Origin: Thermothelomyces thermophilus ATCC 42464
Lineage: Eukaryota; Ascomycota; Sordariomycetes; Sordariales; Chaetomiaceae
DNA length: 64,000 bases
Assembly: GCF_000226095.1 (NCBI RefSeq)
Contig: NC_016478.1
Location: 3,214,001 to 3,278,000, forward strand
Reading direction: 5' to 3'
Positions 16,485 to 59,603 of the stretch are shown here, one piece after another (within the stretch, counting starts at the first letter, position 1; the number at the start of each line of letters is the position of its first letter). The translations under genes and the position numbers were made by a program. A model generated the notes under the pieces. That model saw nothing but the letters and a program-made list of their open reading frames with translations. It made no database searches and had not been told where the DNA came from.

Positions 16485-16550
16485 TATTACTATCACTCCC
16501 TTTATTCTATTATAGTTTAGGATAAAGGTAATTTCGACCTCGATATCGAT

Positions 16551-21700: not shown

Positions 21701-21935
21701 GCATATCACCTATAGACTAACAAACAAATAGAGTGACTAAACTAAGTTATCAAGTAGTACTTCCGTTTTTACATTAACTACTAGCAAGATAACTAGGTTA
21801 TACTATTGCTAATAGTATAACTTGCCTATAATATAACGCTAATAGAAACGACTAAAGTTATACTATTCTTTATAAACTACAGATACGAAGCAAACCTTAG
21901 GTAAGGACTAGAGGTTATAGTGCTAAGAGTAGCAG
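18731..21935 (+). pseudogene. E3 pol, first part (protease to integrase core)
   Basis: In the -1 frame relative to gag. Protease LVDSRAE near 18950 (active-site Gly changed to Arg). RT at about 19670-20350, box YYFDD near 20123, keeping both Asp. RNase H at about 20560-20830. Integrase zinc region at about 21190-21370, then the catalytic core. E4 cuts it at 21936, just after the core; the rest resumes at 29515. Confidence 0.87.
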
Positions 21936-22383
21936 TGTTACGGATAAGCATATAGATGGCCCGGCAGGCTGCAGCCAGGACGCGGGACATTCCGACAGCC
22001 AATCACTTGACGGACCAATCAGAAGATTATCACTGCCAAGACTAAGGTCTTTACTAGTAATAATAACATATCACTATCAACAACGCGGGATCACAGAGTA
22101 AAAGGAGAAATAGTACTAGTGATAACTATTAAAAAGGGACAGATAATTATATATATATAGCTAGCCAGTCACTCGTTATAGTAGACTCTAGGAGTTTACT
22201 AGTAATAACAATTATAATCATAGTACTTATACTAAGCATTGCTAATTACTATAAGAAATAACTCTAAGTGTTATTATAAACCCTTTGGCTTTACTAAATC
22301 CCTTAGACGACCTGCCTACCTGTCCCGCTCAATCTACCTTCGTCTAAACCCTTTCAGAAGAAGTCTAAGCTAGGTTCGTCACA
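21936..22383 (+). repeat. E4 5' LTR (alpha)
   Basis: 448 bp from TGTTACGG to GTCACA, identical in length to 29062-29509. U3 is about 21936-22160, ending in an (AT)n TATA-like run. The shared R-U5 follows, in which AGTAATAACAA (22201-22211) is the RIP form of the predicted self-primer. Confidence 0.95.
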
Positions 22384-22385
22384 CG

Positions 22386-22396
22386 TTGTTACCACT
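22386..22396 (+). other. Predicted self-priming primer-binding site of E4
   Basis: TTGTTACCACT lies three bases after the 5' LTR. It is the exact reverse complement of AGTGGTAACAA at 29327-29337 in E4's own 3' LTR, just downstream of the TATA run. The same pairing recurs in E5 and E7. No TGG-start tRNA primer site is visible. Confidence 0.55.
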
Positions 22397-22449
22397 CCCT
22401 TTGTTCTGTTATAGTTCAGAACGGAGGTGACCTTGACCTCGACATTGAC

Positions 22450-24672: not shown

Positions 24673-27600
24673 CGCCCGTATAGTAGTAAGTAATAGCGTA
24701 GTATAGGAGGAACTAGCGTAAGAAACCACTATATCAAAACCTCCTGGTAGAAATATAGGAAATCGCCGTAATTTTTAGACGACGGCAGCAAGACAAGCAA
24801 CTATAGACAATAGCATAATAGGAACAGCATGAAATGCTCGTACTAGTAGATAGTGGAGCAGAGATAAACCTAATTTCGCCGACACTTGTAAATCAGCTAT
24901 AGATACCTTAGAGAATGAAGCAGAAGCATGGCATAGTCAAAGGGCTATTTCCGATATAATAAGTATATAGGGAGACCAAACTAATTGATATTACTATAGT
25001 AGGGAAAACTATAGCAGTTATATTTAGCATTATAGATATAGGCAATGACAAAGACATGATATTAGGGTTACTATAGTATAAAGATTATGACCTAGACATT
25101 AGCTAGAAGAATGGTAGCTACCTATAACCCCGAACAGAGTCGTATTCGACTAGCGAGATAGGGAGCGCGTAAGGATCGCGAGCAGACGATGCTTAGGGGA
25201 AGGCATGTCCTACGGATCTACCGTAAGAGACGGACAGTAGTAGGCAGACTACTATAGACTCTAGAAGAAGCAGCATAATGATATTAACGTTACGATAGGA
25301 GGAATAAGCTAAACCGCCGATAGCTGTTCTTTCTGTTAATAAATGTAGAGCATTGTAACTAGAGCAATAGGTTAAGATAGAAGAAATCGCTAGCATCGCT
25401 ATAGATAGAACCAAGTTTATATACTATTAGAAAGTCAAGAAACAAGACAAGACTAGGGAAGTACCAAAGGAATACGAAGGATACCTAGCATTTAAACTAA
25501 AGTATCTAGAAGAATTACTAGAACACGGCCTATAGGATCACGAGATCAAGCTTAAGAAAGGAGTATAACTAAAGTTCTTTAAGATCTACTATACAAGCTA
25601 GATATAGAACGAAGAACTTAAGTAATATTTGGAGGAGAACCTTCGAAGAGGATATATCTACCTGTTAACATCGCTAGCAGGCTACCTAATCCTGTTTATA
25701 CCTAAGAAAGACAGAAAGCTATAGTTATACGTTGACTATTAGTAACTTAACGAATAGACTGTGAAAAACCGATACCCGTTACCGCTAATCTCACAGCTCC
25801 GAGATTAGTTAGTAGGAGCCTAATATTTTACGTGTCTTGACTTGCTATTGGCCTACAATTATATACAGATCAAAGAAGGCGACAAGTAGAAAACGGCCCT
25901 TAGGATACCCTATGGCCACTACGAGTACCTCGTCATGCCATTTAGACTTACGAACGCACTAGTAACGTTCTAAGCCTTGATTGATCAAGCTATCTAATCC
26001 TTTCTGGACAAATTTACGGTATATTATCTTGACAATATACTTATCTTCTCCAAAACGATAGACGAATACTAGAAGTATGTAAGAGTAGTGCTAGATGTGT
26101 TATATACGTATAAGCTATTAGTTAACAAGGAAAAGAGCGAATTCTATATTAGGAAGATAGTGTTTTTAGGATATAAAATATCCCTAAGACAAATCCGGAT
26201 GGAACCTTCAAAGATTAAAGCTATTAAGAATTGGCTATAACCGATGTTAGTTACGGAAGTACAAAGCTTTATTAGATTTGCGAATTTCTACTAGATGTTT
26301 ATTAGGAACTTTGGAGCGATCGTACGATCTTTATACAAACTTACTAAGAAGAACGCTAAATTCCCATGAGAAGAGTAATACGAGTAAGCATTTATATAGA
26401 TCTGTGACACCATTATTAAAGATCTAGTACTAGTACTACTAGACCCTAAGAAGCCATTTGAGGTAGAAACGGACGCTTCAGACTATACCATTAGAGGACA
26501 ATTAGGATAACAAGACGAACAAGGGAAGCTATATCCTATAGCCTTCTTTTTAAAGAAGCTCGATAGACTACGTCTTAATTATCTAATCTATGACAAGGAA
26601 CTACTTGCGATTGTTAAAGCTTTTAAGAAATGGCGACTATACCTTAGTAGTACGATTAAACTAGTACAAGTATATATAGATTATAAGAATTTACAATACT
26701 TTATAACGACAAAAGAACTTAACAGACAATAAATATAATAGGTAGAATTCCTCGTAGAATTTAACTTTGAGATCTACTATAAGAAGGGCAAAGAGAATAT
26801 ACAAGCAGACGCCTTAAGCCGACGAACGGATTATATAGAAGGACGAACGGAAACAACGCTACCGTTATTCAAGGAACAAATGGATAGAACGCTACATCAC
26901 GAAACGTAGACACCTGTAGAAGATGACCTACTCGACTCGTTCCTAGAATGTTATATAATCTTTCGAGAAGAAAGGATTAACAAGGCATAGTATTAAGTAA
27001 TACCCGGACTAGCGGTACCTGACGAAGTGGAAGAAAAAGATGGGAAACTCTAGTACCGAGGCAAAGCGTATATCTACAATAAAGATTAATAGCTACGAAT
27101 GATTTGAGAACTCTATAAATCAAAACTCGGAGGATACAAAGGAGTTACAAAGACTGTCGTACAAGTTAAGAAACACTATGACTTTCTACAGTTAACGACA
27201 CGAGTTAAGGAAGTTATATAGAGCTACGACATCTGTAATCGAAGCAAAACAGCACGATACAAGCTGTATAGGCTACTTTAGCTACTACTAATAGCTAACA
27301 AACTATAGAGTTTAGTTATAATAGACTTTATTACAAAGCTGCTAGAATCTAAGGATATAGCTATAGGAGTAACCTATAACAATATTCTTACTATAGTAGA
27401 TCGCCTAACCAAGTAGGCATATTTCTTTCCCTATAAGGAGTCCTAGACAGCGGAATAGCTAGCAGATATAATCTATTGGCAAGTCGCATTAGTATACGCT
27501 TAGCTATAGGAATAGATTACCGACAGAGATACCAAGTTTATATTGAAGTTCTAGCAAGCATTAATGTAACGATTAGGCGTCAATAGCAAGCTATTAACAG

Positions 27601-28421
27601 CATATTACCTATAGACCGACAGACAAACAGAGCGACTAAACCAAGTTATTAAGTAGTACCTCCGCTCTTACGTTAACTACTAGCAAGACGACTAGGTTAT
27701 ACTGTTACTAACGGTATAACTCGCTTACAATACGACGCTAACAGAAACAACCAAAGTCATACTATTCTTTACAAACTATAGATATAAAGCAGACCTTAGA
27801 CAAGGACTAGAGGTCACAGTGCCGAGAGCAGTAGTCAAAGCGGAACAAATGTACGTACTATATAAGAAGCTTAAAAACGAACTTAAGTTTGTCAGAACTA
27901 GAATGAAGAACTATTATAACAGACACAGGCTCGAGGGACCTTACCTAGAGAGGGGAGACAAAGTCTACCTAGTTATACGGAACTTATAAACTAAACGACT
28001 AAGTACGAAGTTAGACTTTAAGAAGGTCAGACCCTTCGTTATCAAAGAACGAATTTCGATATCTAATTATTAACTATCGTTACCATTATCTATACAACTA
28101 CAGACGGATGTTTTTCATATTTCACTTCTCGAACCAGCACCGAAAAACGCCAAGGTTGCTACGTATATCGAAGCAGAGGACGAAGAGGAAGAATAGGACG
28201 TCAAAGAAATTCTAGATTTATATATTATTAATAGGGAACTATAGTACCTAGTCAAGTGGCTCGATTTCAGACTAGAAGACAACTTATAAGAACTAGTCAA
28301 GAATTTGAGCTGCCCTAAGAAACTAGAACAGTTCTACCAGCAGAACCTAGATCGACCAAAGGAAAACCTAGGATAGAACTAAAGACGGCGCCCTAGTCAA
28401 TAGTATCGACGGTATCATTAA
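24630..28421 (+). pseudogene. E4 pol (protease, RT, RNase H, integrase, chromodomain)
   Basis: Pol polyprotein in the -1 frame. Protease: LVLVDSGAE with the active-site Asp at 24849. RT at about 25560-26240, with YYLDN at 26022-26036 (second Asp to Asn by RIP). RNase H near 26460-26740 (ETDAS motif). Integrase zinc region near 27080-27240 (GGYKG, RKHYDF-like, paired Cys changed); core at about 27310-27780. Chromodomain at about 28195-28350 (VKEILDL, YLVKWLD, KLEQF). Stop TAA 28419-28421, matching E5 exactly in spacing. The last 107 bases overlap the 3' end of the antisense gene. RIP stops make it inactive. Confidence 0.92.
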
Positions 28422-28934
28422 TCTGTGACAAGGGCATAGTAGGTGCCTCTTGCCGCTTAACCTCCTCTAACTTGTCTAAGGTCGACAGACCACGTGTTAC
28501 TATATTGGTACCTTTCTCTACTAAAAACTCCTTCTGCTGATGAAGACGCCTGAGCTGTGTAAGCTTTTCGGATAACTCGTGCTAGGCTTCTTCTAGACGG
28601 CGTTAAGATTTATCTAGCTCAAGTTCGGCATGACGTTTAGTATCCTTGATACGATGCTGCTCCTAGAGAATGTAATCTACTAGAACAAACATTAGGAATT
28701 ATATTTAAAAAAAAAGATATGCTTATAGGAAGAAAGCAGTATGCTAGAGCTATCGTAAGAACGACCTCGACAAACGTAGGCTTTATAACGCTTTGTATAT
28801 ACGATTATTTTGTAGACAAGGCCTTATGACGCGCACTAAGAGCAAGGCATAATGACAAAACCGTTCTTAGCAATGTTCTAAGCAAGGGAAGCACGGTAAC
28901 GTACAGAATACGACTTCTGTTTCTCTATCGGCAT
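28315..28934 (-). pseudogene. E4 antisense gene: Cys6 zinc-cluster/coiled-coil protein, one intron
   Basis: Reads opposite to gag-pol. Exon 1 is 28934-28727 (208 nt, ATG intact), predicted intron 28726-28680 (47 nt), exon 2 28679-28318 plus stop at 28317-28315. The exons sum to 570 nt, 190 codons. Exon 1 has the order M-P-C-S-x-C with later Cys positions read as Tyr (TAC/TAT), in the spacing C-x2-C-x6-C-x8-C-x2-C-x6-C. Exon 2 is a Glu/Lys/Arg/Leu-rich, coiled-coil-like segment. The predicted donor reads ATAAG (GTAAG before RIP). A role as transcription factor or chromatin factor is inferred from the motif only. Confidence 0.7.
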
Positions 28935-29061
28935 TTTATTAATATAGCGACTATAATGTAGAAATAGGAAGAATATAGTACTTATAAGCAAAGGGTTATT
29001 AGCGCTATTTAAAACGGCCTAAGAGGGCTTTTAGGTCAAAAGCCTTAAAGGAGGGGCATTG

Positions 29062-29509
29062 TATTATAGATAAGCATATGGATGGCCCGGCAGGCTATAG
29101 CCAGGACGCGGGACATTCCGATAGCCAATCACTTGACGGACCAATCAGAAGATTATCACTGCCAAGACTAAGGTCTTCACTAGTGATAATAACATGTTAC
29201 CGTCGATAACGCGGGATTACGGAGTAAAAGGAGAAATAGTACTAGTAATAACTATTGAAGAGAGACAGATAATTATATATATATAGCTAGCTAGTCACTT
29301 GTTATGGTAGACTCTAGGAGTTTACTAGTGGTAACAATCACAATCATAGTACTTATACTAAGTATTGCTAATTACTATGAGAAACAACTCTAAGTGTTGT
29401 TATAAACCCTTTGGCTTTACCGAATCCCTTAGACGACCTGCCTGCCTGTCCCGCTTAATCTACCTTCGTCTAAACCCTTTTAGAAGAAGTCTGAGCTGGG
29501 TTCGTTACA
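29062..29509 (+). repeat. E4 3' LTR (alpha)
   Basis: 448 bp. Begins TATTATAG (TGTCACGG after RIP) directly after the purine-rich AAAGGAGGGGCATTG. Retains the intact AGTGGTAACAA at 29327-29337. Confidence 0.94.
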
Positions 29510-29514
29510 AGTAG

Positions 29515-30320
29515 TCAAAGCAAAACAAATGTATATACTATATAAGAAACTTAAAAAGGAACTCGAGTTTATTAAGACTAGAATAAAAAACTACTACGAC
29601 AAACATAGGCTTAAGGGACCTTGCCTAGAGAGGGGAGATAAAGTCTACCTAATTATACTAAATTTACGAACCAAACGACTAAGTACAAAGCTAGACTTTA
29701 AGAAGGTTGGACCCTTTATTATCAAAGGACAAATCTCGACATCTAACTATCGACTATTATTACTGTTATCTATATAACTATAGATAGACGTTTTTTATAT
29801 TTCACTTCTTAAACTAGTACCAAAGAATGCTAAGGTTATTATATATATCGAAGTAAAAGATAAAGAGGAAGAATAGGACGTCGAAGAAATTCTAGATTTA
29901 TATATCATTAATAGAGAACTATAGTACCTAGTTAAATAGCTTGATTTTGGACTAGAAGATAACTTATAAGAACTAGTTAAGAACCTAAGTTACCTTAAGA
30001 AACTAAAGTAGTTCTACCGGTAGAATCCTAACCGGCTATAAGAACTAGTTCTAAAGCCTATTCCCTAATAGAAAAAGAGGGGAACCTGCTAGAATTAGGA
30101 CTAGGATCTAAACCGATCGACTCTTAATCGAGTACGTCAAAAGCACCTAATGCCTAAGCTTAACCCGCGAGGGTCTGCGTCTCCGATATTGGCGGAGGAG
30201 TATCTAGTTCTTCCTCCTCCTCTAGATAAGCTACACTATAACGAAAAACTTTAGTACTACGATCGCGTAGGGATTGCTACAAACGACGTAATTAACTTAA
30301 ACGGTTTAGTATCCAAGTAA
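29515..30320 (+). pseudogene. E3 pol, last part (integrase C-terminus, chromodomain, beta tail)
   Basis: Resumes E3 pol directly after the E4 TSD. A stop-free stretch (29529-29777) reads YKKLKKELEF, KNYYDKHRLKGP and RGDKVYL, the integrase C-terminal region. The chromodomain follows at about 29880-30020 (VEEILDLYIINREL, then KKLKQF-like). In the beta type the frame continues past the chromodomain with a Pro-rich tail (LPPPLDK) to TAA at 30318-30320. That tail overlaps the antisense gene by about 260 nt. Whether this TAA is the native stop or a mutated CAA is open. Confidence 0.75.
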
Positions 30321-30654
30321 GAAGCGCTTTGGTCTTAGTAATCTCTTTCGAAACCTTCTCCTGCTCTGACAAATTCGAAAGGACTAAGACAGTTAGTAAC
30401 CTAGGACTATAAAGGAAAATAACAAGGAACCTATAGGCATCTATAACGTTTGGGCTACTATACTTCTTGCCTATATGAATATAGTTTTAACACTTGTTTA
30501 AATCCTCTATTATTATATAATGCTTTCATGGCTTTATATTCTAATAACGCTTATAAGGTATAGTAACCTTATAACCTTCCTGCTTAATCTTAATTGTAAT
30601 AACGTATTGTTCGTGCTTAAGATCGCGACAGTTCCTAGGGATATAATTAGCTAT
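30058..30654 (-). pseudogene. E3 antisense gene (beta type), one intron
   Basis: Start reads ATA at 30654 (ATG in E7). Exon 1 30654-30435 (220 nt), intron 30434-30384 (51 nt), exon 2 30383-30061 (323 nt), stop 30060-30058; 181 codons. All lengths equal those of E7. The intron ends in ACTAACTGTCTTAG, a good branch-point plus acceptor. N-terminal Cys-rich motif, then Leu/Arg/Glu-rich C-terminal half with a poly-Glu run. Confidence 0.62.
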
Positions 30655-30772
30655 AACAAAAGGAAGCTAATGGAAGAAGGACATTACCTATAGGGAAAAG
30701 AAGGGGTATTAGTAGTATTTAAAACAAGTTATAAGAAGCTTTTAGGTCGAAAGCCCTAAAGAGAGGGCATCG

Positions 30773-31205
30773 TGTCACGAGCTAACTATATACCGCGACC
30801 CGGTAGGGCATAGCAGACTAAACGAGCCACCAATCAAGAAGGGTACGGAGCAAGGCTAACACGGGATCGCTAGGGAGCGCAGGCTACCACAGGCGAACAA
30901 TTGCCAAAAGGGAAGGATAGCAGAGGATAGCTAGCTACTAAAGGCGATCCTAGGGTAGGCTAGAAGGGGACTATAAGCGACTAACAGAAGTATATATATA
31001 TATAAATAATTACTCGTTTTAGTAGAATAGTAACTTATAATTATAGTACTTATACCAAGTATCGTTGACTACTATAAGAGATAACTCTAGTGTTGTTGTG
31101 AATCCTTTGGCTTTACCAAATCCCTTAGACGACCTGTATGCTTGTCCTGCTTAACCTACCTTCGTCTGAACCCTTTTAGAAGAAGTCTGAGTTAGGTTCG
31201 TCACA
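30773..31205 (+). repeat. E3 3' LTR (beta), 19-bp deletion
   Basis: 433 bp against 452 in the 5' LTR. The missing 19 bp fall just after GTAGA near 31025, in the segment that holds CTCTAGGAGTTTACTAGTA in the 5' copy. The start TGTCACGA is intact. Confidence 0.9.
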
Positions 31206-31210: not shown

Positions 31211-32350
31211 GCTACTGCTAATAGCTAACAAACTATAGAGCTTGGTTATGATAGACTTTATTATAAAGCTACTAGAATCTAAAGATATAGCTATAGGAGT
31301 AATCTACGATAGTATTTTTACTATAGTAGATTACTTAACTAAATAGGTATACTTCTTTCCCTATAAGGAATCCTAGATAGCTAAATAGCTAGCAGACGTA
31401 ATCTATCGGCAAGTTACATTAGTATATACTTAGCCGTAAGAATAGATTACTAATAGAGATACTAAGTTCACGTCGAAGTTCTAGCAAGCGTTAATATAAC
31501 GATTAGGCATTAATAGTAAGCTATTAACGGTATATTACCTATAGACTAATAGATAAATAGAGTGACTAAACCAAGTTATCAAGTAATATCTCCGTTCTTA
31601 CATTAACTACTAGCAAGACGACTAGGTTATACTATTACTAATGGTATAACTCGCTTATAATATAACGCTAATAGAAATAACCAAAGTCATACCATTCTTC
31701 GTAAACTATAGATATAAAGCAGACCTTAGGCAAGGACTGGAGGTTATAATGCCAAGAGCAGCAGTCAAAGTAAAACAAATATATATACTATATAAGAAGC
31801 TTAAAAAGGAACTTAAGTTTGTCAAAACTAGAATAAAGAACTATTATAACAAATATAGGCTCGAGGGACCTTGCCTAGAGAGGGGAGACAAAGTCTACCT
31901 AATTATACAAAACCTATAAACTAAACGACTAAGTATAAAGCTAGATTTAAGAAGGTCAGACCCTTCGTTATCAAAGAACAAATTTCGACATCTAACTACT
32001 AACTATCGTTACTATCATCTATATAACTACAGACAGATGTTTTTTATATTTTACTTCTCGAACTAGTACCGAAAAACGCTAAGGTTGCTATATATATCGA
32101 AGTAGAAGACAAGGAAGAAAAATAAAATATCAAAGAAATTCTAGATTTATATACCATTAATAGGGAATTATAATATCTAGTTAAATAGCTTAATTTTAGA
32201 CTAAAAGATAACTTATAGAAACTAGTTAAGAATTTAAACTGCCCTAAGAAACTAGAACAGTTCTACTAGTAGAACCTAGATCGACTAAAGGAAAACCTAA
32301 GACAGAACTAAAGACGATGCCCTAGTTAATAGCATTAATAGTATTATTAA
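31211..32350 (+). pseudogene. E2 pol, last part (integrase core to chromodomain)
   Basis: Continuation of E2 pol after E3. Integrase core at about 31230-31700, with a mutated form of the IVDRLTK block, DRDTKF-like at 31455 and the QTER-like block (E degraded) near 31540. Integrase C-terminus at about 31790-32010, chromodomain at about 32130-32265. Stop TAA at 32348-32350, equivalent to E5. A one-base deletion lies in the RGDK/LDFKK region near 31947. It overlaps the antisense gene tail-to-tail. Confidence 0.82.
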
Positions 32351-32884
32351 TCTCTGACGAGGGTATAGTAGGCGCCTCTTGCCGCTCTTACCGCTTAACC
32401 GCCTCTAACTCGTCTAAGGTCGACAAACTACGCGCCACCATATCGGCACCTTTCTCTATCAAGAACTCCTTTTGCTAACGAAGACACCGGAGCTATATAA
32501 GCTTTTCGGACAACTTGTACTAGGCTTTTTCTAGATAGCGTTAGGATTTATCTAGCTTAAGTTTAATACGACGTTTAATATCCTTGATACGATGCTACTC
32601 CTGAAGAATACGATTTATTGGAACGAATATTAGGAATTATAGTACTAAAAAGAAAAAAAAAAGGAGATAAGCTTATAGGAAGAAAGCGGGATGCTAGAGC
32701 TATCGTAAGAACGACCTTGACAAATATAGGCCTCGTAATACTTTATATACACGATCATTTTACAGACAAGGCCTTATAATACGCACTAAAAGCAAGGTAT
32801 AATAATAAAACCATTCTTAGTAATGTTCTAAGCAAGGGAAGTATAGTAACATACAAAATATAACTTTTGTTTCTCTATTAGCAT
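32244..32884 (-). pseudogene. E2 antisense gene (alpha type), one intron
   Basis: ATG intact at 32884-32882. Exon 1 32884-32677 (208 nt, same as E4 and E5), intron 32676-32618 (59 nt, A/T-rich tract inside), exon 2 32617-32247 (371 nt, same as E5), stop 32246-32244; 193 codons. Cys positions read TGY or TAY. The acceptor here reads CCAA where E4 and E5 read CTAG; both derive from CCAG by single RIP-type changes. Confidence 0.68.
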
Positions 32885-33818: not shown

Positions 33819-34265
33819 TGTGATAAACCCAACTTAGACTTCTTCTGAAAGGGTCCAGACGGAGGCGGGCTGAGCGTGACGAGCAGGCAGGTCGTCTGAG
33901 GGATTCGGTGAAGCCAAAGGGTTCACAACAACACTAGAGTTGTCTCTCACAGTAATCAGCAATGCTTAGTATAAGTACTGTGATTGTGATTGTTACTACT
34001 GGCGAACTCCCAGAGTCCACTATAACGAGTGACTAGCTAGCTATATATACACAATTGTCTGTCCTTCTCCAATAGTTATTACTAGTACTACTTCTCCTTT
34101 CACTTCGTGATTCTGCGTTGTCGACGGTAATATGTTATTATCACCAGTGAAGACCTTAGTCTTGGCGGTGATAATCTTCTGATTGGTCTATCGAGTGATT
34201 GGCTGTCGGAATGTCCCGCGTCCTGGCTACAGCCTGCCAGGCCGCCCATGTGCTTATTCGTGACA
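33819..34265 (-). repeat. E5 3' LTR (alpha)
   Basis: 447 bp in inverted orientation, ending in CCGTGACA-type sequence (here TTCGTGACA) at 34265. Equal in length to 40973-41419. Confidence 0.95.
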
Positions 34266-34301
34266 CGATGCCCCTCCTTCAAGGCTTTCAACCCGAAAGC
34301 C
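34266..34301 (-). other. Polypurine tract and adjacent hairpin, E5
   Basis: On the minus strand GAAGGAGGGGCATCG abuts the 3' LTR and is the likely plus-strand primer. Immediately upstream is an inverted repeat, GGCTTTC (34283-34289) and GAAAGCC (34295-34301). The same hairpin-plus-purine arrangement precedes the 3' LTR in beta and gamma copies, where the loop reads GGT. Confidence 0.7.
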
Positions 34302-34392
34302 CTCTTAGGCCGTTTCAAATAGCGCTAACAACCCTTCGCTTGTGAGTACTGCATTCTTCCTATTTCTACGTCGTGGTCGCCATGCTGACAAA

Positions 34393-35041
34393 ATGCCGGT
34401 AAAGAAACGGAAGTCGTATTCCGCACGTTACTATGCTTCCCTTGCTCAGAACATCGCTGAGAACGGTTTTGTCGTTATGCCTTGCTCTTGGTGCGCGTCT
34501 CAAGGTCTTGTCTGTAAAATGATCGCGTATATAAAGCGTTACGAGGCCTGTGTTTGTCGAGGTCGTTCTTACGATGGCTCTAGCATCTTGCTTTCTTCCT
34601 ATAAGCTTGTCTCCTTCCCCTTTTTTTTTTTTTTTTTTTTGAGTGTAATTCCTGATGTTCGTTCTAGTAGATCGTATTCTCTAGGAGCAGCGTCGTATTA
34701 AGGATGTTAAACGTCGTGCTGAACTTGAGCTAGATAAATCCTAATGCCGTCTGGAAGAAGCCTAGCGCGAGTTGTCTGAAAAGCTTGTACGGCTCTAGTG
34801 TCTTCGTCAGTAGAAGGAGTTTTTAGTAGAGAAAGGTGCCAATATGGTGGCACGTAGTCTATCGACCTTAGACGAGTTAGAGGCGATTAAGCGGTAAGAG
34901 TGGCAAGAGGCGCCTACTATGCCTTCGTCAGAGATTAATGATGCCGCCAATGCTGTCGACTGGGGCGTCGTCTTTGATTCTGTCCCAGGTTTTCCTTTAG
35001 TCGATCTAGATTCTGCCGGTGGAACTGTTCCAGTTTCTTAG
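34393..35041 (+). pseudogene. E5 antisense gene: Cys6 zinc-cluster/coiled-coil protein, one intron
   Basis: Best copy of the antisense gene. ATG at 34393, exon 1 to 34600 (208 nt), predicted intron 34601-34667, exon 2 34668-35038 (371 nt), TAG 35039-35041; 193 codons. Exon 1 begins with a basic stretch (MPVKKRKSYS), then MPCSWCASQGLVCKM. The Cys are at residues 31, 34, 41 and 53, with Tyr (TAC) at 50 and 60. Restoring TGC there gives C-x2-C-x6-C-x8-C-x2-C-x6-C, the spacing of the fungal Zn2Cys6 cluster. Exon 2 has heptad-like Leu/Glu/Arg (RRAELELDKS, FLVEKGANMV, STLDELEAI). A few RIP stops (TAG, TAA) interrupt it. It overlaps the end of pol by 107 nt, tail to tail. Confidence 0.8.
34601..34667 (+). 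other. Predicted intron of the E5 antisense gene
   Basis: 67 nt. The donor reads ATAAGC, which is GTAAGC before a TG-to-TA change; the acceptor is TTCTAG; a CTGAT branch-like motif precedes it; a 20-T run (34621-34640) forms the pyrimidine tract. Removing it joins codons in phase (exon 1 leaves one base). The homologous introns are 47 nt in E4 and 59 nt in E2, while exon 1 stays 208 nt in all three. Confidence 0.68.
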
Positions 35042-38000
35042 GGCAATTCAGGTTCTTGACTAGTTCCTATAAGTTGTCTTCTGGTCCAAAATCAAGCCAT
35101 TTGACTAGGTACTGCAGTTCCCTGTTGATAATGCGTGAATCCAGAATTTCTTCGACGTCCTATTCTTCTTCCTCGTCTTCTGCTTCGATGTGCGTAGCAA
35201 CCTTGGCGTTTTTCGGTGCTGGTTTGAGAAGCGAAATATAAAAAACATCTGTCCGTAGTCGTATAGATGACGGTAACGATAGTCGGTAGTTAGATATCGA
35301 AATTCGTTCTTTGATAACGAAGGGTCTGACCTTCTTAAAGTCTAGCTTCGCGCTTGGTCGTTTGGTTTGTAAGTTCTGTATGATCAGGTAGACTTTGTCT
35401 CCCCTCTCTAGGCGAGGTCCCTCGAGCCTGTGTTTGTCGTAGTAATTCTTTATTCTGGTTTTGACAAACTCGAGTTCCTTCTTAAGCTTCTTGTATAGTG
35501 TGTATATCTGTTCTACTTTGGCTGCTACTCTTGGCACTGTAACCTCTAGTCCTTGCCTAAGGTCTGCTTTGTATCTGTAGTTCGCGAAGAACGGTGTGAC
35601 TTTAGTCGTTTCTGTTGGCGTCGTATTGTAAGCGAGTTGTGCTGTTGGCAATAGTATGACCTAGTCGTCTTGCTAGTAGTTAACGTAAGAGCGGAGGTAC
35701 TACTTAATAACTTGGTTTAGTCGCTCCGTTTGTCCGTCAGTCTGTAGGTAATATGCCGTTGATAGCTTGCTATTGACGCCTAATCATTGTATTAACGCTT
35801 GCCAGAACTTCGATACGAACTTCGTATCTCTGTCGGTGATCCATTCTTGCGGCCAAGCATGCATTGATATAACTTGCCGATAGATTATGTCTACTAACTG
35901 TTCCGCTGTCTAGGACTCCTTATATAGAAAGAAGTATACCTACTTAGTTAGGCGATCTACTATAGTAAGAATACTATCATAGGTTACTCCTATAGCCGTG
36001 TCCTTAGATTCTAGCAGCTTCGTGATAAAGTCTATTATAACTAAACTCTATAGTTTGTCAGCTATTAGTAGTGGCTAAAGTAGCCTATATGGCTTGTGTC
36101 GTGCCGTTTTGCTTTGGTTATAGATGTCGTAGTTCCGTACGACTTCCTTAACTCGTGCCGTTAACTGTGGAAAGTCGTAGTGTTTCCTGACTTGTGCGAC
36201 AGTCTTCGTGACTCCTTTGTGTCCTCCGAGTTTTGACTCGTAGAGTTCTCGAATCATCCGTAGCTATTGATCCTAGTCGTAGATGTATGCTTTGCCTCGG
36301 TACCAGAGTTTCCCATCTTTTTCTTCCACTCCGTCAGGTACCACTGGTCCAGGTGCTGCTTAATACTATGCCTTGTTGATCCTTTCCTCTCGAAAGATTG
36401 CGTAGCATTCTAGGAATGAGTTAAGTGGATTATCTTCTACGGGTGTCTGCGTTTCGTAGTATAACGTCCTGTCTGTTTGTTCCTTGAATAACGGTAGTGT
36501 TGTTCCTGTTTGTCCTTTTGTATGATCCGTTTGTTGGCTTAAAATGTCTGCTCGTACGTTTTCTTTGCCCTTCTTATAGCGGATCTCGAAGTTGAATTCC
36601 GCGAGGAATTCTACCTATCGTATTTGTTATCCGTTAAGTTCCTTCGTTGTTGTAAAGTATCGTAAATTCTTATGATCTGTATACACTTGTACCGGTTCAA
36701 TCGTACCACTAAGGTATAGTCGCCATTCCTTGAAAGCTTTGACAATCGTAAGTAGTTCCTTATCGTAAATCGGATAATTGAGACGTAGTCTATCGAGCTT
36801 CTTAGAAAAGAAGGCTATAGGATGTAGCTTCCCTTGTTCATCTCGTTGTCCTAATTGTCCTCCGATAGCGTAGTCTGAAGCGTCCGTTTCTACCTCGAAT
36901 GGCTTCTTAGGGTCTGGTAGCACTAGTACTAGGTCTTCAATAATGGCGTCACAGATCTGCGTGAATGCTTGCTCATGTTACTCTTCCCATTGGAATTTAG
37001 CGTTCTTCTTGGTAAGTTCGTGTAAAGGTCGTACGATCGCTCCAAAGTTCCTGATAAACATCTGGTAGAAGTTCGTAAATCCGATGAAACTTCGTACTTC
37101 TATGACTGACGTCGGTCGTGGCCAATTCTTAATGGCTTTAACCTTTGAAGGTTCTATCCGGATTTGTCCGGGGGATATTTTGTATCCTAGAAATACCGTT
37201 TTTCTAACGTAGAATTCGCTCTTTTCCTTGTTGACTAATAGTTTGTATATATATAGCGCGTCTAATACTGCTTTTACGTGCTTCCGATGTTCGTCTATTG
37301 TCTTAGAGAAGATGAGTATGTCGTCGAGATAATATACCGCAAATTTGTCGAGAAAGGGTCGGATAGCTTAATTAATTAGGGCTTAGAACGTTACTAGCGC
37401 GTTTATAAGTCCGAATGGCATGACGAGGTACTTATAGTGGCCATAGGGTGTCCTAAAGGCCGTTTTCTACTCGTCGCCTTCTTTGATCCGTATATAGTTA
37501 TAGGCCGATAGCAAGTCAAGACGCGTAAAATATTAGGCTCCTATTAACTGATCTCGGAGCCGTGAGATCAGCGGTAACGGGTATCGATTTTTCACGGTCT
37601 GTTCGTTAAGTTGCCGATAGTTAACGTATAACCGTAGCTTTCCGTCTTTCTTAGGCACAAATAGGATTAGGTAGCCTGCTAGCGATGTCAACAGGCGGAT
37701 ATATCCTCTTCGAAGGTTCTCCTCTAAATATCGCTTAAGTTCTTCGTTCTATATCTAGCTTATATAGTAAATCTTAAAGAACTTTAGTTATGCTCCTTCC
37801 TTAAGCTTAATCTCGTGATCCTATGGGCCGTGTTCTAGTAATCCTTCTAGATGCTTCGGTTCGAATGCTAGGTGTCCTTTGTATTCTTTTGGTACTTCCC
37901 TAGTCTTATCTTGTCTCTCGGTTTTCTGATAGTATATAAACTTGGTCCTATCTATAGCGATGCTAGCGATTTCTCCTATCTCAGCCTACTACTCTAATTG

Positions 38001-38726
38001 CAGTGCTCCGTATTTGTTAACGGAGAGAATAGCTATCGGCGGTTTAGCTCGTTCCTCCTGTCGCGATATTGATGTCGTTATGCCGCCTCTTCCAGAGTCT
38101 GTAGTGGTCTGCCTGCCACTGTCTGTCTCTTGCGGTGGATCTGTAGGACATGCCTTTCTCTGAGCATCGTCTGCTTATGATCCTTGCGTGCTCCCTATCT
38201 CGCTAGTTAAATATAACTCTATTTAGGGTTATAGGTAGCTACTATTCTTCTAACTAATGTCTGGGTCGTAATCTTCATGCTATAGTAACCCTAATATTAT
38301 ATCTTTGTCGTTACCTATGTCTATAATGCTAAATACGACTACTATAGTCTTCCTTGCTATAGTGATGTCGATCGGTTCGGTCTCTCTATATACCTATTAC
38401 ATTGGAAATGGCCCTTTGACTATGCCATGCTTCCGCTTCATTCTCCAGGGTATCCGTAGCTAATTTACAAGTATTAGCGAAATCAGGTTCATCTCTGCTC
38501 CACTGTCCACTAGTACGAGCATTTCGTACTGTTTCTACTGTGCTATTATCTATAGTCGCTTGTCTTGCCGCCGTCGTCTAAAGATTGCGGCGATTTCCCA
38601 TGTTTCTGCTAGGAGGTCTCGGTATAGTAGTCTCTTACGCCAGTCCCTCCTATACTACGCTACCACTTGCCGTTGCGTGGGCGTTAATGGTTTCCGGGCC
38701 CCTCGAAGGGCCCTGACCTGTTTCCC
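34935..38726 (-). pseudogene. E5 pol (protease, RT, RNase H, integrase, chromodomain)
   Basis: Pol in the -1 frame from the slippery site, one continuous frame of about 1260 codons. Protease DSGAE near 38505. RT with MPFGLINAL near 37410 and an intact YLDDI at about 37318-37335. RNase H at 36627-36923 (ETDASDYAIG, FFSKKLDRLR, YDKELL). Integrase zinc region at 36075-36257 (GGHKGVTK, RKHYDFP; paired Cys now NYDIYN). Core at about 35600-36060 ([18 protein letters not shown]). Integrase C-terminus and chromodomain at about 35020-35165 (DVEEILDSRI, QYLVKWLDFGP, KLEQFH). Stop TAA 34937-34935. RIP stops remain, including one before DVEEI where an aromatic cage residue would sit. Confidence 0.93.
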
Positions 38727-40906
38727 AGGTCAGTGCTAACCTCTCTGGTTATTTGGCTAATAGCGGCTTTATTAATCGTGCTCATTTCCGTAAGCTATTA
38801 GGTGCTTATGGCTTCCTACTATTAGGTCCGTTTTACTTTCCATTATACGTGCCATAGCTTCATCTGAAGCTCCCGAATTCGTAATTTCTTTTCGTCTGTA
38901 TGATAGAGGCAATCGTTGCTCTAGCACGAGTCCTATATATCTCGTCCGATTCTACAGTACCTAGGCTAGGCTTGTTTTGGAACTACTATAATGCTTTCTA
39001 GGTCTTAGGCTTCGATTTCCCAGAGCAATTCGGCCGCTCTGTTTCCTGCATCGTAGACCTATTCCATAGGGTATAAGCCTCCGTCCCTATTTTCCTGTCA
39101 GGTCGGCTAGTGATTGTTTTCGAATTTGTCATGGAAGTAATATCGGCATTCGTGTGCCACACACTGGAACCAGGGCACTTGCGCATGTGCCTCGTGTCGA
39201 GGGTGTAGTTATATGGCATCGCCTAGGAGGTATTAGAATTCTTTTCCAAATCCTTCCTACTATACGTAGGCCGTAGGTACTCTAATGCTAAGATAAGAGT
39301 GCTTCTTCTAGTAGCTTTCCTACGTATACTTGTCTTTCCCGCGGTTCGCTTATATAAACTGGTATTCTAGGTTCCGTACGTTATTGCTGAGTTGCTAATT
39401 GTCAAGGTACTTGGCGTAGCTATTAGGCCTATTATATGTTATAGGCTATTCTCCTTTAATAGCTTCTACGATACGTCGGAGTTCCCTTATCTCGTCCCTC
39501 ATTCTATCGCTCTGCTAGGTGAGTCGAATCAAGCGTTCATCCCGTTCGCGCAGTTCCGTGTTAAGCCAGAAAACTTCGTTACGGTACTATTCGATTCGTT
39601 CCTAGAGGAATAGAACATTAGGTCTGGGTCTTTCGATTCCTTGGGTATCGGTTGTCTACGATCCATCCCGCCTCTATGTAACCGTGAAACCCCACTATCC
39701 TAAGGCCGGGAGAATCGAAGCTAGCGGTGTATATTCTCCTGCCATGTCCTATCTGGCGAGACCTGTCTCTGGGTCTACAGTGACCAGTTCGGAGTATAGT
39801 GCTTGTTTGTCTTTACCGTTGCCGTTATGTCCGAGACTGTCTATGTCATTGCCCTTGTCTTCGTAGCTTGTGGCCGCTACTTCGATGACATCCTTAGTGG
39901 TTTTGTTAATAGCCGTAATTTCCTTTCTAGGGGCTAGTTTCCATTCTTTCTTTGGGCTCTAGCATTCTTGCTTATAGTGCCCTTTCTTTCTATAGTTATA
40001 GTAGGTAACATTGGACTTGTCTTTAGTCGTCTTCTTCTAGTCCTGCTTCTACGCTACGTCTATATCTATAGCTCTAGGGTACATCCTGTACAAGGTACTA
40101 ACGTATACTCGCTTTTTCTTGTCGTTGGCCTTAACTATGGTTCCGTTCATTTGACCTTGTTTCTGCTGCTCTTGTGTGTAGAGTCGATTATCGATCTTGA
40201 TGGCCTACGCGATGTATTTATCTAGAGTCTTAGGCTGATTATACTTGTATAGCTTGTCCTTGACCTTTTCCTTTAGGCTATTGTAGAACAATTGTATTAA
40301 CGCCTTATCATTAAGCTAAGACTTGAGCATGTCCTATCTAAACTATATAGCGTAGGAAGCTACTAACTTAGTCTATTAGAGATTAGCGAGTCTTTCTTAT
40401 ATATAAATCTTCTTGTCTTTGTCGCCAAAAACCTTCTAAAGCTCTTCTTCGAAACGGTCGTAAGATCGGAAGACTGCCTATGTAAACGCGTCTCGATCGT
40501 CTTTGTCTTCCTCCGTGAGATAGTCGTTCCACGTAGGCTCGAACCATCTAAGTACCTTGCCCTCTAGTCTCGTGGCTATATAGAGGACTTTGGCTTTGTC
40601 GTCCAGAAACTTGTCATCATTAAGCCGGAAGTAGGATCGGAGGTTTGTCAGGAATCCTACGAGATCCTCCTTAGTTCCTCCGTATTTGCCAGGTGGTTCG
40701 ATCTTGATGTGCTTCGCTTTGGCGCCCTCGAGTGCCTCGATTTTGGTGTAGGCCTCGTTAACCAACTTCTACGAGTACTTTTCGCGGTTCTCGAGTTCCT
40801 TGATTCGAGCTTAAGTAGCCTTATCTCTCTGGTCCAACTCCTGGATCCGCTGCTGGAGTTGACCAAGCTAAGCGAGCAGCTGTTCGGCCGTGACGTTAGT
40901 AGCCAT
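38684..40906 (-). pseudogene. E5 gag
   Basis: ATG 40906-40904, 740 codons to TAA 38686-38684. The capsid-type domain is well preserved at 40478-40765 (VNEAYTKIEALEG, LVGFLTNLRSYFRLND, ATRLEGKVLRWFEP). CCHC knuckle at about 40003-39962 with its last Cys intact. C-terminal extension of about 430 residues includes QCVAHECRYYF near 39145, a possible Cys/His metal site. In-frame stops begin at about codon 13 (TAG for CAG), so it is not translatable as read. The leader is only 66 bp. Confidence 0.92.
38696..38726 (-). promoter_or_regulatory. Predicted -1 ribosomal frameshift signal, E5 gag-pol
   Basis: On the minus strand GGGAAAC (38726-38720) is in the zero-frame phase (GGA begins 2181 nt, 727 codons, from the ATG). 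A 6-nt spacer (AGGTCA) follows, then an intact stem GGGCCC (38713-38708), loop TTCGAG, GGGCCC (38701-38696). The gag stop is 10 nt further on (38686-38684). Heptamer phase, spacer and stem all fit the eukaryotic -1 frameshift model. Confidence 0.75.
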
Positions 40907-40959
40907 ATCGATGTCGAGGTCGAAGTCACCTCCGTTCTGAACTATGACAGAACAAAGGG

Positions 40960-41154
40960 AGTGGTAACAACGTATGACGAACCTAACTTAGACTTCTTCT
41001 GAAAGGGTCTAGACGGAGGCGGGCTGAGTGTGACGAGTAGGCGGGTCGTCTGAGGGATTCGGTGAAGCTAAAGGGTTTATAACAACACTAGAGTTGTCTC
41101 TTATAGTAATTAGCAATGCTTGGTATGAGTACTGTGATTGTGATTGTTACTACT
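40960..41154 (-). other. Self-complementary primer pair, E5
   Basis: AGTGGTAACAA on the plus strand at 40960-40970 is the primer-binding region, two bases inside the 5' LTR. Its partner in the LTR is at 41144-41154 (TTGTTACTACT on the plus strand), complementary at 10 of 11 positions, the mismatch being a RIP-type change. The partner lies shortly downstream of the TATA run in the transcript's direction. Confidence 0.55.
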
Positions 41155-41419
41155 GGCAAACTCCTAGAGTCTACTATAACGAGTGACTGGCTAGCTATAT
41201 ATATATAATTGTCTGTCCTTCTCTAATAGTTATTACTAGTATCACTTCTCCTTTCACTTCGTGATTCTGTATTGTTGACGGTGACATGTTATTATCACTA
41301 GTGAAGACCTTAGTCTTGGCGGTGATAATCTTCTGATTGGTCTATCGAGTAATTGGCTGTCGGAATGTCCTGTGTCCTGGCTGTAGCCTGCCAGGCCGCC
41401 TATGTGCTTATTCGTGACA
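40973..41419 (-). repeat. E5 5' LTR (alpha)
   Basis: 447 bp, promoter LTR of E5. The TATA-like run (about 41195-41210) is followed by the R-U5 half shared with beta and gamma LTRs. Confidence 0.95.
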
Positions 41420-44886: not shown

Positions 44887-45314
44887 TATCACGGAAATAT
44901 ATATACAGATGCCGCCTAAGCCACTAGCATAAATGGGCCAATCAAGCCAAAGGAATAATAGACTAATTAGGATAGGATTACACTTAGCAGGAAATAATCC
45001 TAGCAGAGGATCATTAGCTTACAATATAAGCTAGGTAGGCTAATATAAAGAATCACTATAACCACCAGTAATCCTAGGATTATATATATATATAGATAGT
45101 CACTTATTATAATAGACTCTAAGAGTTTACCAATAATAACAACTTATAATTACAGTACTTATATTAAGCATCATTAACTACTATAAGAAATAACTCTAAT
45201 ATTATTATAAACCCTTTAACTTTACCAAATCCCTTAGACGACCTGCTTACTTGTCCCGCTCAATCTACCTTCGTCTAAACCCTTTTAGAAGAAGTCTAAG
45301 TTAGGTTCGTCATA
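44887..45314 (+). repeat. E6 5' LTR (gamma)
   Basis: 428 bp from TATCACGG (TGTCACGG before RIP) to GTCATA. U3 (about 44887-45085) is unlike alpha or beta apart from the first few bases and the TATA run. From about 45096 it matches them. Confidence 0.93.
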
Positions 45315-45380
45315 CGTTGCTATTACTCCCTTTATTCTATTATAGTTCAGAATAGAGGTAACTTCGACCTCGACATCGAC

Positions 45381-48409: not shown

Positions 48410-48475
48410 TGTTATTACCACTCCCTTTGTTCTATTATAGTTTAGAACAGAGGTAACTTCGACCTCGATATCGAT

Positions 48476-53600: not shown

Positions 53601-54666
53601 AGGCGTTAATAGCAAGCTATTAACAGCATATTACCTACAGACTGACGGACAAACAGAGCGACTAAACCAAGTTATTAAGCAGTACCTCCGCTCTTACGTT
53701 AACTACTAGCAAAACGACTAGGTCATGTTATTGCCAATAGCATAACTTGCTTATAATATAACGCTAACGGAAATAACCAAAGTTATACTGTTCTTCGTAA
53801 ACTACAGATATGAAGCAGACCTTAGGCAAAGACCGGAGGTTATAGTGCTAAGAGCAGTAGTTAAAGCGGAATAAATGTACATATTATATAAAAAGCTCAA
53901 GAAGGAACTCGAGTTTGTCAGGACTAGAATAAAGAATTACTACGACAAACATAGGCTCGAGGGACCTTACCTAGAGAGGGGAGACAAAGTCTACCTAATT
54001 GTATAAAACTTACGAACCAAACGACCAAGTACGAAGCTAGACTTTAAGAAGGTCGGACCTTTCGTTATCAAAGAACGAATTTCGACATCTAACTACCGAC
54101 TATCGTTACCGTCATCTATATAGCTATAGATAGATGTTTTTCATATTTCACTTCTCGAACTAGTACTAAAGAACGCTAAGGTTGCTATATATATCGAAGT
54201 AGAGAACGAAAAGGAAGAATAAGACATCGAAGAAATTCTAGATTTATATATTATTAATAGGGAACTATAGTATCTAGTCAAATGGTTCGATTTCGGACTA
54301 GAAGATAATTTATAGGAACCTGTCAAGAACCTAAATTGCCCTAAGAAACTAGAGCAGTTCCACTAGCGGAATCCTAACCAGCTATAAGAACCGGCTCTAA
54401 AGCCTATTCCCTAATAGAAAAAGAGAGGAACCTACTAGAATTAGGACTAGGATCTAACCTGATTAACTCCTAATCAAGTACGTCAAAAGTATCTAACGCT
54501 TAAGCCTGACCCGTAAGGGTCTGCGTCTCTAATATTGGCAGAGGGGTATCTAGTTCTTCCTCCTCCTCTAGACAAGCTACGCCACGACGAAAAACTTCGG
54601 TACCACGATCGCGTAGGGATTGCTGTAAACGACGTAATCGACTTAAACGGCTTAGCGTCTAAGTAA
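50656..54666 (+). pseudogene. E7 pol (protease, RT, RNase H, integrase, chromodomain, beta tail)
   Basis: -1 frame pol. Protease LVDSGAEMNL with Asp near 50875. RT at about 51590-52290; a stop-free stretch 51868-52224 shows SAYNYIRIKEG, MPFGLTN, YYLDNILIFSK and FLGYEIS. RNase H at about 52490-52760. Integrase zinc region at about 53110-53290, core at about 53330-53800, C-terminus with ERGDKVYL near 53975. Chromodomain at about 54225-54370. As in E3, the frame then continues with a Pro-rich tail (LVLPPPLDKL) to TAA 54664-54666, overlapping the antisense gene by about 263 nt. Confidence 0.88.
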
Positions 54667-55000
54667 ATAGCGCCTTGGTCTTAGCAATCTCTTTTGAAAC
54701 CTTCTCTTGCTCTGACAAATTCGAAAGGACTAAGATAGTTAGTAATCTAAGGCTACAAAGGAAAACAACAAGGAACCTATAGGTATCTATGACGTTTAGA
54801 CTATTGTACTTCTTGCCTATATAAATATAATTTTGACACTTGTTTAAACCTTCTATTATTATATAATGCTTCTACGGCTTTGTATTCTAATAACGCTTAC
54901 AAGGCATGGCGACTTTATAACCCTCTCGCTTAATCTTGATCGTAATGGTATGTCGTTCGCGTTTGAGATCGCGACAATTCCTAGGAATACGATTAGCCAT
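54404..55000 (-). pseudogene. E7 antisense gene (beta type): Cys-rich/coiled-coil protein, one intron
   Basis: ATG intact at 55000-54998. Exon 1 55000-54781 (220 nt), intron 54780-54730 (51 nt), exon 2 54729-54407 (323 nt), stop 54406-54404; 181 codons. The N-terminus is basic (MANRIPRNCRDLKRERH). The Cys positions of AMPCKR-x are read as Cys or Tyr, with C-x2-C at both ends; the first loop is longer than in alpha. Exon 2 has SEQEKVSKEI, RLRRLQQSLRDRGTEV and an acidic EEEEEL run. The intron has ACTAACTATCTTAG at its end; the donor is ATAGGT (GTAGGT before RIP). Confidence 0.72.
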
Positions 55001-55081
55001 GGCAAAAGGAAGTTAGCAGAAGAAGGACATTACCTATTGAGAAAAGGGGGTGTTAGTGGTATTTGAAACAAGTCATAAGAA

Positions 55082-55569: not shown

Positions 55570-55574
55570 TAGTT

Positions 55575-58500: not shown

Positions 58501-59018
58501 TAGAGAGGGGAGACAAAGTCTACCTGATCATACGAAACTTACAAACCAAACAACTAAACATAAAGCTAGACTTTAAGAAGGTCAGACCCTTCGTTATTAA
58601 AGAACGAATTTCGACATCTAACTACTAACTATCGTTACCATCATCTATATAACTACAGATAGATATTTTTTATATTTTACTTCTTAAACCAGTACTAAAG
58701 AACGCTAAGGTTGCTATATATATCAAAGCAAAGGACGAAGAGAAAGAATAGGACGTTAAAGAAATTCTAGATTTATATATTATTAATAGAGAACTATAGT
58801 ACCTAGTTAAATAGCTTAATTTCGGATTGGAAGACAACTTATAGGAACTAGTTAAGAACTTGAACTGCCCTAAGAAACTAGAACAGTTCTACTAGCAGAA
58901 ACCGGATCGACCGTAGGCACTAGCTCGGATAAAACGGCCAAGTTAGCCTCCAATAAATCTAGGCCTAAAGAAGACTAGTTAAACGGGACGTTAGCACCCT
59001 AGGACTATACGTTACTAA
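55575..59018 (+). pseudogene. E6 pol, main part (RT to chromodomain)
   Basis: Resumes directly after the E7 TSD within the protease-RT region. RT at about 56110-56840, box YYLNN near 56577. RNase H at about 57020-57290. Integrase zinc region at about 57640-57800 and core at about 57840-58350. A stop-free stretch 58374-58628 has KKELEFVKTR, LERGDKVYLI and KKVRPFVIKE. Chromodomain at about 58750-58890 (KKLEQF). The frame then meets tandem TAA at 59016-59021, taken as the end. Overlaps the antisense gene by about 150 nt. Confidence 0.85.
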
Positions 59019-59512
59019 TAACATATACCTCGGAATCCTATACCCTCCGTTCTTCCGCTTCTATTTGCTCTAGAGACTACAAGCCTTGCCAAAATAGCTT
59101 AGAACCCCGCTCCTTCAAGAAACGTTTCTGGTGACGAAGATAAGCTAATTAGCCGATAGCCGTCTAAAGTTAAGTCTAAAGAACGAAAAGGGCCTCTTTA
59201 GCATTAGCCTCTTCTTATTCTATACATTTTTATTTAGATATAATCTTTATTACTATAAAAGGTTAGCTATAAATATTAAGGTAATAAACTAGGTCACGAA
59301 CAAGTAGACGCTATATCGGAACTATTATAAGAATGACCCTAACGTACGTACTTGCTATAGCAAGAAGAGCCTAATGCTATACGACAAGCCAAGTTCCGCT
59401 TAAAACACTACAAACACGGTATAACGTGTACGCTAGAAGAATCAATAAAAGAAGCAAGCACGGCGCGCTATTAGGATTTTAAAGATCGGCGCTTAGAGAT
59501 ACGATTTGCTAT
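58870..59512 (-). pseudogene. E6 antisense gene (gamma type): Cys6/coiled-coil protein, one intron
   Basis: Start reads ATA at 59512, aligned with the beta start (M-A-N-R-I). Exon 1 59512-59302 (211 nt), intron 59301-59253 (49 nt; donor GTTCGT, branch CTAAC, acceptor TATAG), exon 2 59252-58873 (380 nt), stop 58872-58870; 197 codons. The motif starts IPCL-x-CFKRNLACRIALG and the later positions read Tyr. With Cys restored the spacing is C-x2-C-x6-C-x8-C-x2-C-x6-C, as in alpha. Exon 2 shows KRFLKERGSKLF and LEQIEAEERR, matching the alpha RG-x-x-x and LDELEA blocks. The C-terminus ends in V-x-V-S as in E5. Confidence 0.7.
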
Positions 59513-59603
59513 CTTATTAGCCACTAGTAATACGGAAAAAGGAAAAAAATTATAAGGTATATATAGAAAAGGATATTAGCGCTATTTGAAACGACCTAAA
59601 GAG

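Follow-up and report, generated by a model that had tools for sequence, protein, structure and literature searches.

Antisense BRTN-family genes and their U3 regions as exchanged 3' modules of chromovirus elements in Thermothelomyces thermophilus

The thermophilic saprotroph Thermothelomyces thermophilus ATCC 42464 has a genome of 38.7 Mb on 7 contigs, of which a stretch of 64,000 nucleotides (nt) of contig NC_016478.1 (the window, always meaning this whole stretch) was analysed. It harbours six copies, belonging to three types (alpha, beta and gamma), of long terminal repeat (LTR) retrotransposons carrying an additional gene on the strand opposite to gag-pol, between the chromodomain and the 3' LTR. 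This gene had been reported in a preliminary description of the window for the six copies whose 3' ends lie in it, and was located in all six. The elements classify as chromoviruses (Ty3/gypsy) by reverse transcriptase, an integrase C-terminal domain with chromodomain (in L015, an unmutated copy) and an LTR pair: PF00078 (reverse transcriptase) and integrase SH3_Tf2-1 signals were detected in window copy A, and the PF00385 chromodomain (E 4.1e-14) in L015. The antisense gene proved to be real, its product is by sequence a homolog of the Botrytis protein BRTN, and it appears to have been exchanged together with the adjoining U3 (unique 3') half of the LTR between otherwise near-identical elements. 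The features of copy A and the positions of the gene in the other five copies are as follows (R-U5, repeat and unique 5' half of the LTR).

33819..41418, minus strand: alpha element A, with LTRs at both ends
33819..34052: R-U5 half of the 3' LTR, including a TATA-like site, common to all types
34042..34049: palindromic TATATATA, where U3 divergence starts
34053..34259: U3 half of the 3' LTR, without alignment among the alpha, beta and gamma types or with the U3 of a fourth type, delta
34260..34336: polypurine tract and antisense leader, homologous in all types
34393..35059, plus strand: alpha antisense gene of copy A, two exons
34393..34600, plus strand: exon 1, N-terminal helix and six-cysteine cluster
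34601..34667, plus strand: intron of 67 nt, spliceosomal-type
34668..35059, plus strand: exon 2, coiled coil, RGLSTLDELE block and C-terminal tail, with the stop codon at 35057-35059
34935..35059: tail-to-tail overlap of 125 nt between the pol C-terminus (minus) and antisense exon 2 (plus)
35013..35159 (approximate), minus strand: pol chromodomain
40975..41418, minus strand: 5' LTR of element A
28300..28934, minus strand: alpha antisense gene of copy B
32229..32884, minus strand: alpha antisense gene of copy D
29980..30645 (ends approximate), minus strand: beta antisense gene of copy C
54326..55000 (low end approximate), minus strand: beta antisense gene of copy E
58850..59521 (low end approximate), minus strand: gamma antisense gene of copy F

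The reality of the gene is confirmed by comparison of 42 distinct alpha copies (three in the window and 39 other fetched loci; L001 duplicates a window copy). After intron removal the 196-codon frame is open without any editing in 16 of them, all with a GC content near 0.52 and all encoding one identical protein. A chance open reading frame was ruled out by these open copies together with the homologs retrieved by two profile searches (108 and 257 database proteins, E <= 0.001). The 16 copies of this GC content (L014, L015, L018-L025, L028-L030, L034-L036) differ by at most two substitutions across the aligned 0.93 kb, the length of the intron poly-T aside; judged from their sequences, they are a recent burst at which repeat-induced point mutation (RIP) has not yet arrived.

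The window copies of alpha, beta and gamma have all undergone RIP, as evident from stops and low GC. Changes relative to L015 across gene and intron comprise 928 G>A and 677 C>T, compared with 251 reverse transitions and 91 transversions. The coding sequence of window copy A (199 codons) contains 7 internal stops and has tyrosine in place of Cys 50 and Cys 60, two of the six cysteines; read on the plus strand from 34393, it yields the six-cysteine motif followed by stops, and the frame is lost past exon 1. Cysteines are lost in 61 of the 252 cells of the alpha alignment, the first one in no copy; all retained cells are TGC or TGT. The preliminary description had stated that every lost cysteine is TAC or TAT, which is exact for alpha (61 of 61 cells in the 42 copies). 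Its central claim, a conserved antisense zinc-cluster-like gene in a chromovirus that was intact before RIP, is likewise supported: two of the three outcomes it had named as speaking against such a gene, namely no conserved antisense frame across many copies and cysteine columns other than TGY in the less mutated ones, did not occur. Codon positions 1, 2 and 3 of the alpha gene contain 2, 1 and 4 transversion sites, respectively, which is too few to prove selection within alpha.

The gene had been described as a single frame ending at 35041. Alignment of the 42 copies revealed two exons around a GT-AG intron, ruling out the one-frame reading of the window alpha gene, and the TAG at 35039-35041 corresponds to a Gln codon in open copies, the stop of the family being located at 35057-35059. 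In unmutated copies the intron reads GTAAGC...TTCTAG with a poly-T tract of varying length, and in window copy A the donor is mutated to ATAAGC. Across the 42 copies the intron segment spans 47-75 nt between two conserved blocks, starting with GT (25 copies) or AT (17) and ending with AG (39) or AA (three). Indels relative to L015 fall within the intron in 49 of 62 cells, the exons displaying no more than a 9-nt insertion in 12 copies and, in one copy, a 1-nt deletion. Transversion sites are also more frequent in the intron (5 of 47, poly-T interior left out) than in the exons (7 of 591; Fisher p 0.0009). The spliced product of 196 residues matches exactly the database protein P0001, which may derive from either RNA or DNA. 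The beta gene follows the plan of the alpha gene and has a presumed intron at the same place and in the same phase as alpha, with a branch-like CTAAC motif recognized by eye, and this intron can be read through because its 51 nt are a multiple of three. The delta gene forms one frame with no intron. Among 51 aligned family members (alpha included; from 109 then collected, covering both halves and mostly picked for showing the motif), 14 carry an insertion of 15-20 residues precisely where the alpha intron lies, a site at which the alignment has insertions more often than at any other; we interpret these residues as unspliced readings of the same intron. The alpha intron would also mark the coding strand: being antisense to the genomic RNA, it should survive retrotransposition.

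Pol terminates 125 nt within the antisense gene in every one of the 16 open copies. It thereby constrains the C-terminal part of the antisense protein, but neither the cysteine cluster nor the coil. Some readings of more than 100 residues on the pol strand exist in mutated copies, and pol of L015 stops 125 nt into the overlap; coding of the region on that strand was not considered further, given that homologs of the antisense protein exist elsewhere.

Searches with the single alpha sequence, a 5-sequence profile and a 17-sequence profile retrieved 16, 108 (E <= 0.001) and 257 database proteins (E <= 0.001; 120 of them listed), respectively, including gene models of the host genome itself. By name, the relatives among the listed matches originate from Chaetomium, Canariomyces, Corynascus, Verticillium, Colletotrichum, Metarhizium, Pyricularia, Pseudogymnoascus, Hymenoscyphus and Botrytis. 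The Botrytis member P0132, annotated as 'Putative BRTN', carries six cysteines and aligns with alpha at 25% identity (pairwise E 6e-14, hhalign probability 99). Alpha belongs to the BRTN family by this sequence homology as well as by position, i.e., antisense and between pol and the 3' LTR of a Ty3/gypsy element, and on these grounds we regard its product as a BRTN homolog. For P0005, from another source, the upstream reading (MPLL...) fits ATGCCCCTCC of the polypurine tract adjoining the LTR, which hints at the same location in its source element. No relative was confirmed among 36 pattern matches in IMG/VR. Some family members bear unrelated names in public databases (P0010, P0070, P0149 and P0159 as PilO, MoxR-like ATPase, EnvC and seryl-tRNA synthetase), probably due to their coiled coils.

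The alpha cysteines are spaced C-x2-C-x6-C-x8-C-x2-C-x6-C, exactly as described before, and fit the Zn2Cys6 (PF00172) pattern C-x2-C-x6-C-x5..12-C-x2-C-x6..8-C. The longer first loop reported for beta is x8. For gamma, the same spacing as in alpha had been claimed, and its sequence does read like alpha, with some cysteines mutated in the gamma reading. All six cysteines are invariant in the 51 aligned members, and a broader six-cysteine expression fits 170 of 206 collected family members, 78 of these with 6/8/6 loops. A check against the PF00172 model, proposed in the preliminary description, gave no Zn_clus match of alpha at E<=10, and the gathering score was not reached; BRTN scored 13.7 bits (cut-off 21), and 25 of the 51 family members matched Zn_clus at E<=1 (best E 0.0011). 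Neither a bZIP (basic leucine zipper) family nor PF04195 (TRP28, E<=10) was found among the Pfam matches of alpha, and searches of PDB sequences yielded coiled-coil or unrelated proteins as best hits (E 0.033 and 0.023). In the AlphaFold2 model of the alpha protein (mean predicted local distance difference test 85.4) a helix precedes the cluster and a long helix spans residues 67-132. Fold matches of the modelled zinc domain were weak, with Zn2Cys6 domains ranking best; all seven listed VIA rows, among 20 chains passed by Foldseek, were Zn2Cys6 DNA-binding domains. The antisense protein of about 196 residues is thus predicted to consist of an N-terminal helix, a zinc-cluster-like domain, a long coiled coil and a tail modelled with low confidence, and its six-cysteine domain may bind zinc. 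The same cysteine spacing followed by a coiled coil is found in the Zn2Cys6 factors Gal4, Put3, Hap1 and Ppr1, from which alpha differs by the missing Pfam match and by the helix ahead of the cluster. Presumably it also lacks the basic Cys2-Cys3 loop of Gal4-type factors.

The preliminary description had missed that the antisense gene and U3 covary on a common gag-pol. Transversions alone were counted, because RIP makes none, with alpha copy A as reference. Across gag-pol, beta E, beta C and gamma F differ from alpha A by 13/5903, 29/5903 and 23/5901 transversions, respectively, and the alpha copies B and D by 22/5903 and 19/5901; divergence between types (0.2-0.5%) is the same as within alpha. 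R-U5 is fully alignable between types and slightly more diverged (5' LTR, 2-4 transversions of 233; 3' LTR, 4-6 of 224-234 between types and 1-2 of 228-235 within alpha), and the 77-nt stretch of polypurine tract and leader aligns with 2-4 transversions. In contrast, none of the 661 bases of the antisense gene align between types, nor does more than one of 205 bases of the 3' U3, and the 5' U3 aligns over an edge of 3-22 of 212 bases. Divergence of the LTR starts at TATATATA, a candidate TATA box that may be usable in either direction, and the types become alignable again at 35000-35009, roughly where the chromodomain ends. At the protein level, 4 of 30 beta loci matched the alpha gene with 24-28% identity in mutated readings, and the gamma gene resembles P0054 and P0055. 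Gene and U3 types coincide in 39 of 40 readable alpha loci, in all 30 beta loci and in all four gamma loci (the latter on approx. 95-99 nt of fetched U3). As read from these alignments, the comparison shows the 3' module of antisense gene and U3 to have been swapped wholesale on a near-constant chassis. Within the alpha U3, a nine-base inverted repeat (ATTATCACC...GGTGATAAT, 34137-34175) represents a candidate operator or RNA hairpin; CGG-type operators were not enriched in the LTR.

The single exception in the linkage of gene and U3, L039, is a recombinant with an alpha antisense gene beside the delta U3. On the same strand, at a distance of 7127 bp, lies a second delta U3 that would fit the other LTR of this element, so the reassorted element seems to have replicated. 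Matches to the delta U3 number at least 40 genome-wide, and among those listed eight pairs share a strand at a spacing of 7119-7127 bp. Four of the five delta loci fetched hold a fourth antisense gene, which resembles P0149 most closely; in these four, 266-336 bp of chassis past the gene show 0-4 transversions relative to alpha A; within these 266-336 bp, delta appears to share the chassis. The fifth locus (L077, C6:579450-580750) comprises an LTR without adjacent antisense gene or chassis and may represent a solo LTR, a 5' LTR or a truncation.

Of the database members, 159 satisfied criteria of length and motif; a tree was calculated from 78 of these together with beta, gamma and delta readings of the host genome with X at stops. 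Its bootstrap values had not converged, and the composition of the gamma and delta rows is odd. Alpha groups with P0004 and P0005 of C. globosum, gamma with P0055 and P0054 of Canariomyces and delta with a clade of Pyricularia and Microdochium (each with support 100/99). Beta groups with P0076 and P0082 at 80/87 (97/83 in another tree, some rows of which were slightly mistyped) on a long branch, and its place is unsure. From these groupings, the types probably predate the split of T. thermophilus from the hosts of the relatives, or else arrived horizontally. The weaker placement of beta and the missing delta intron have no bearing on the interpretation below.

Self-comparison of the window further revealed nested insertions: alpha D (10689-33455) contains beta C (16033-31205), which itself contains alpha B (21938-29507), and gamma F (44891-60071) contains beta E (47957-55576). 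Copies with a common chassis have, accordingly, inserted into each other.

A retroelement with an antisense regulator or chromatin factor of its own had been considered unusual in the preliminary description, which is not supported, antisense genes at this place being known from plant elements and from the Botrytis Boty elements. BRTN is the product of an antisense gene between pol and the 3' LTR of Boty elements of Botrytis cinerea (Zhao et al. 2011, Virology 417:248), and brtn has also been reported from a Boty-like element containing a CHROMO domain. Position, chromodomain-bearing element and six cysteines agree with alpha, although the proteins are only 25% identical, as given above; the literature citing BRTN, as far as consulted, is silent on an intron, a zinc cluster and module exchange. 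Plant antisense ORFs (open reading frames; Grande gene23, RIRE2, Retand TRP28) are reported between pol and the 3' LTR (PMC7264820, PMC11963269), Retand differing in its non-chromovirus lineage and in ORFs with the TRP28 domain (PMC11963269). HBZ of HTLV-1 (human T-cell leukemia virus type 1) is a spliced antisense gene with a promoter in the 3' LTR, encoding a nuclear bZIP protein that lowers LTR expression (PMC10186651). Alpha shares the antisense gene next to the 3' LTR and differs by a zinc-cluster-like domain without bZIP match in Pfam; expression, localization and dimerization of alpha would be expected by analogy. The crapaud elements of Podospora anserina, likewise a RIP fungus, comprise 14 LTR subfamilies differing mainly in U3, on a common R-U5 and a largely homologous internal region; their LTR type reportedly does not follow the phylogeny of the internal region, and an examination of escape from RIP did not show it to cause the U3 diversification (PMC10787394). 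The word 'antisense' is absent from the main texts on crapaud, on Verticillium elements and on LTR retrotransposons in fungi. No fungal antisense zinc-cluster gene was found among the literature matches listed, which does not imply its absence from print. The kind of gene is already known from BRTN; as far as the literature matches show, novelty lies in the intron, in how widely the family is distributed, in the interpretation of the cysteines as a zinc cluster and, most importantly, in the exchange of gene and U3 on one chassis.

The function of antisense genes beside the 3' LTR is called unknown in a review. For the genes described here, the most likely role, to which we give about an even chance, is that of a BRTN-family accessory protein, expressed from a spliced antisense transcript and regulating U3 transcription in the manner of HBZ. 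A promoter located within the 3' LTR or adjoining it would drive antisense transcription, and the alpha transcript would be spliced once and translated into the protein of about 196 residues. The protein would dimerize via its coiled coil, enter the nucleus and bind U3 DNA, either itself or via a host factor, thereby setting transcription of its own element and hence copy number, as HBZ does for HTLV-1. Antisense promoter, zinc binding, dimerization, nuclear action and control of U3 are all inferred steps of this scheme. Joint replacement of gene and U3 is the pattern expected of a regulator and its target. Co-replacement could, however, also arise by template switching alone. Gene and U3 are tightly but not invariably coupled, as L039 demonstrates, and as neighbours on the RNA they would be linked anyway. 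A bolder variant, which we consider possible but less likely than not, is an immunity-type cassette as in temperate phages, in which an antisense zinc-cluster repressor and the U3 it recognizes are exchanged whole between elements of the same chassis, so that a new cassette escapes resident repression and starts a burst.

Instead of acting on U3, the protein might serve the nuclear phase of the element by joining the pre-integration complex or target chromatin and aiding nuclear entry or heterochromatic site choice beside the chromodomain, the linkage with U3 reflecting mere adjacency at the RNA 3' end. The overlap of the gene with the pol C-terminus behind the chromodomain, the separability of gene and U3 in L039 and the description of plant antisense ORF proteins as nuclear or DNA-binding are consistent with such a role; we nevertheless judge it rather unlikely, since pol up to the chromodomain is near-identical in alpha, beta and gamma and there is no evident reason why a partner of pol should be replaced so radically. 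Slightly more doubtful is a passive module, moved by template switching during reverse transcription, in which new U3 promoters are the target of selection (host factors, escape from silencing) and the gene, with a role unrelated to U3, hitchhikes. A single crossover at the end of pol would suffice, the module border within the LTR coincides with the TATA-like site, which is presumably close to the U3/R border, and the authors of the crapaud study suggest promoter selection and template switching for U3 diversification (PMC10787394). Full-length six-cysteine relatives in distant species, however, argue that the gene is no mere passenger.

The remaining two explanations are improbable. Regulation by the antisense transcript itself, through double-stranded RNA or interference with sense transcription, would agree with the antisense RNAs discussed as regulators of other retroelements, but would not require the observed conservation at the protein level, the six cysteines invariant in the aligned set or the intron position common to many members. 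Least probable of all is a protein that antagonizes host defence (RIP, quelling, heterochromatin) with type divergence resulting from an arms race: deep divergence between types within one genome would be in line with it, but window copies of all three types have been RIPed and the co-variation with U3 would be left unexplained.

Regulation of U3 by the antisense protein, the reading preferred here, is made accessible by the genome itself. With at least four deeply diverged antisense genes, each normally located beside its own U3, T. thermophilus represents a natural swap experiment, which makes function testable by asking which protein acts on which U3. Module exchange offers an explanation for the U3 subfamilies of fungal elements and, if the exchanged modules are indeed immunity-type cassettes, would account for the unexplained U3 diversification of fungal LTR elements.
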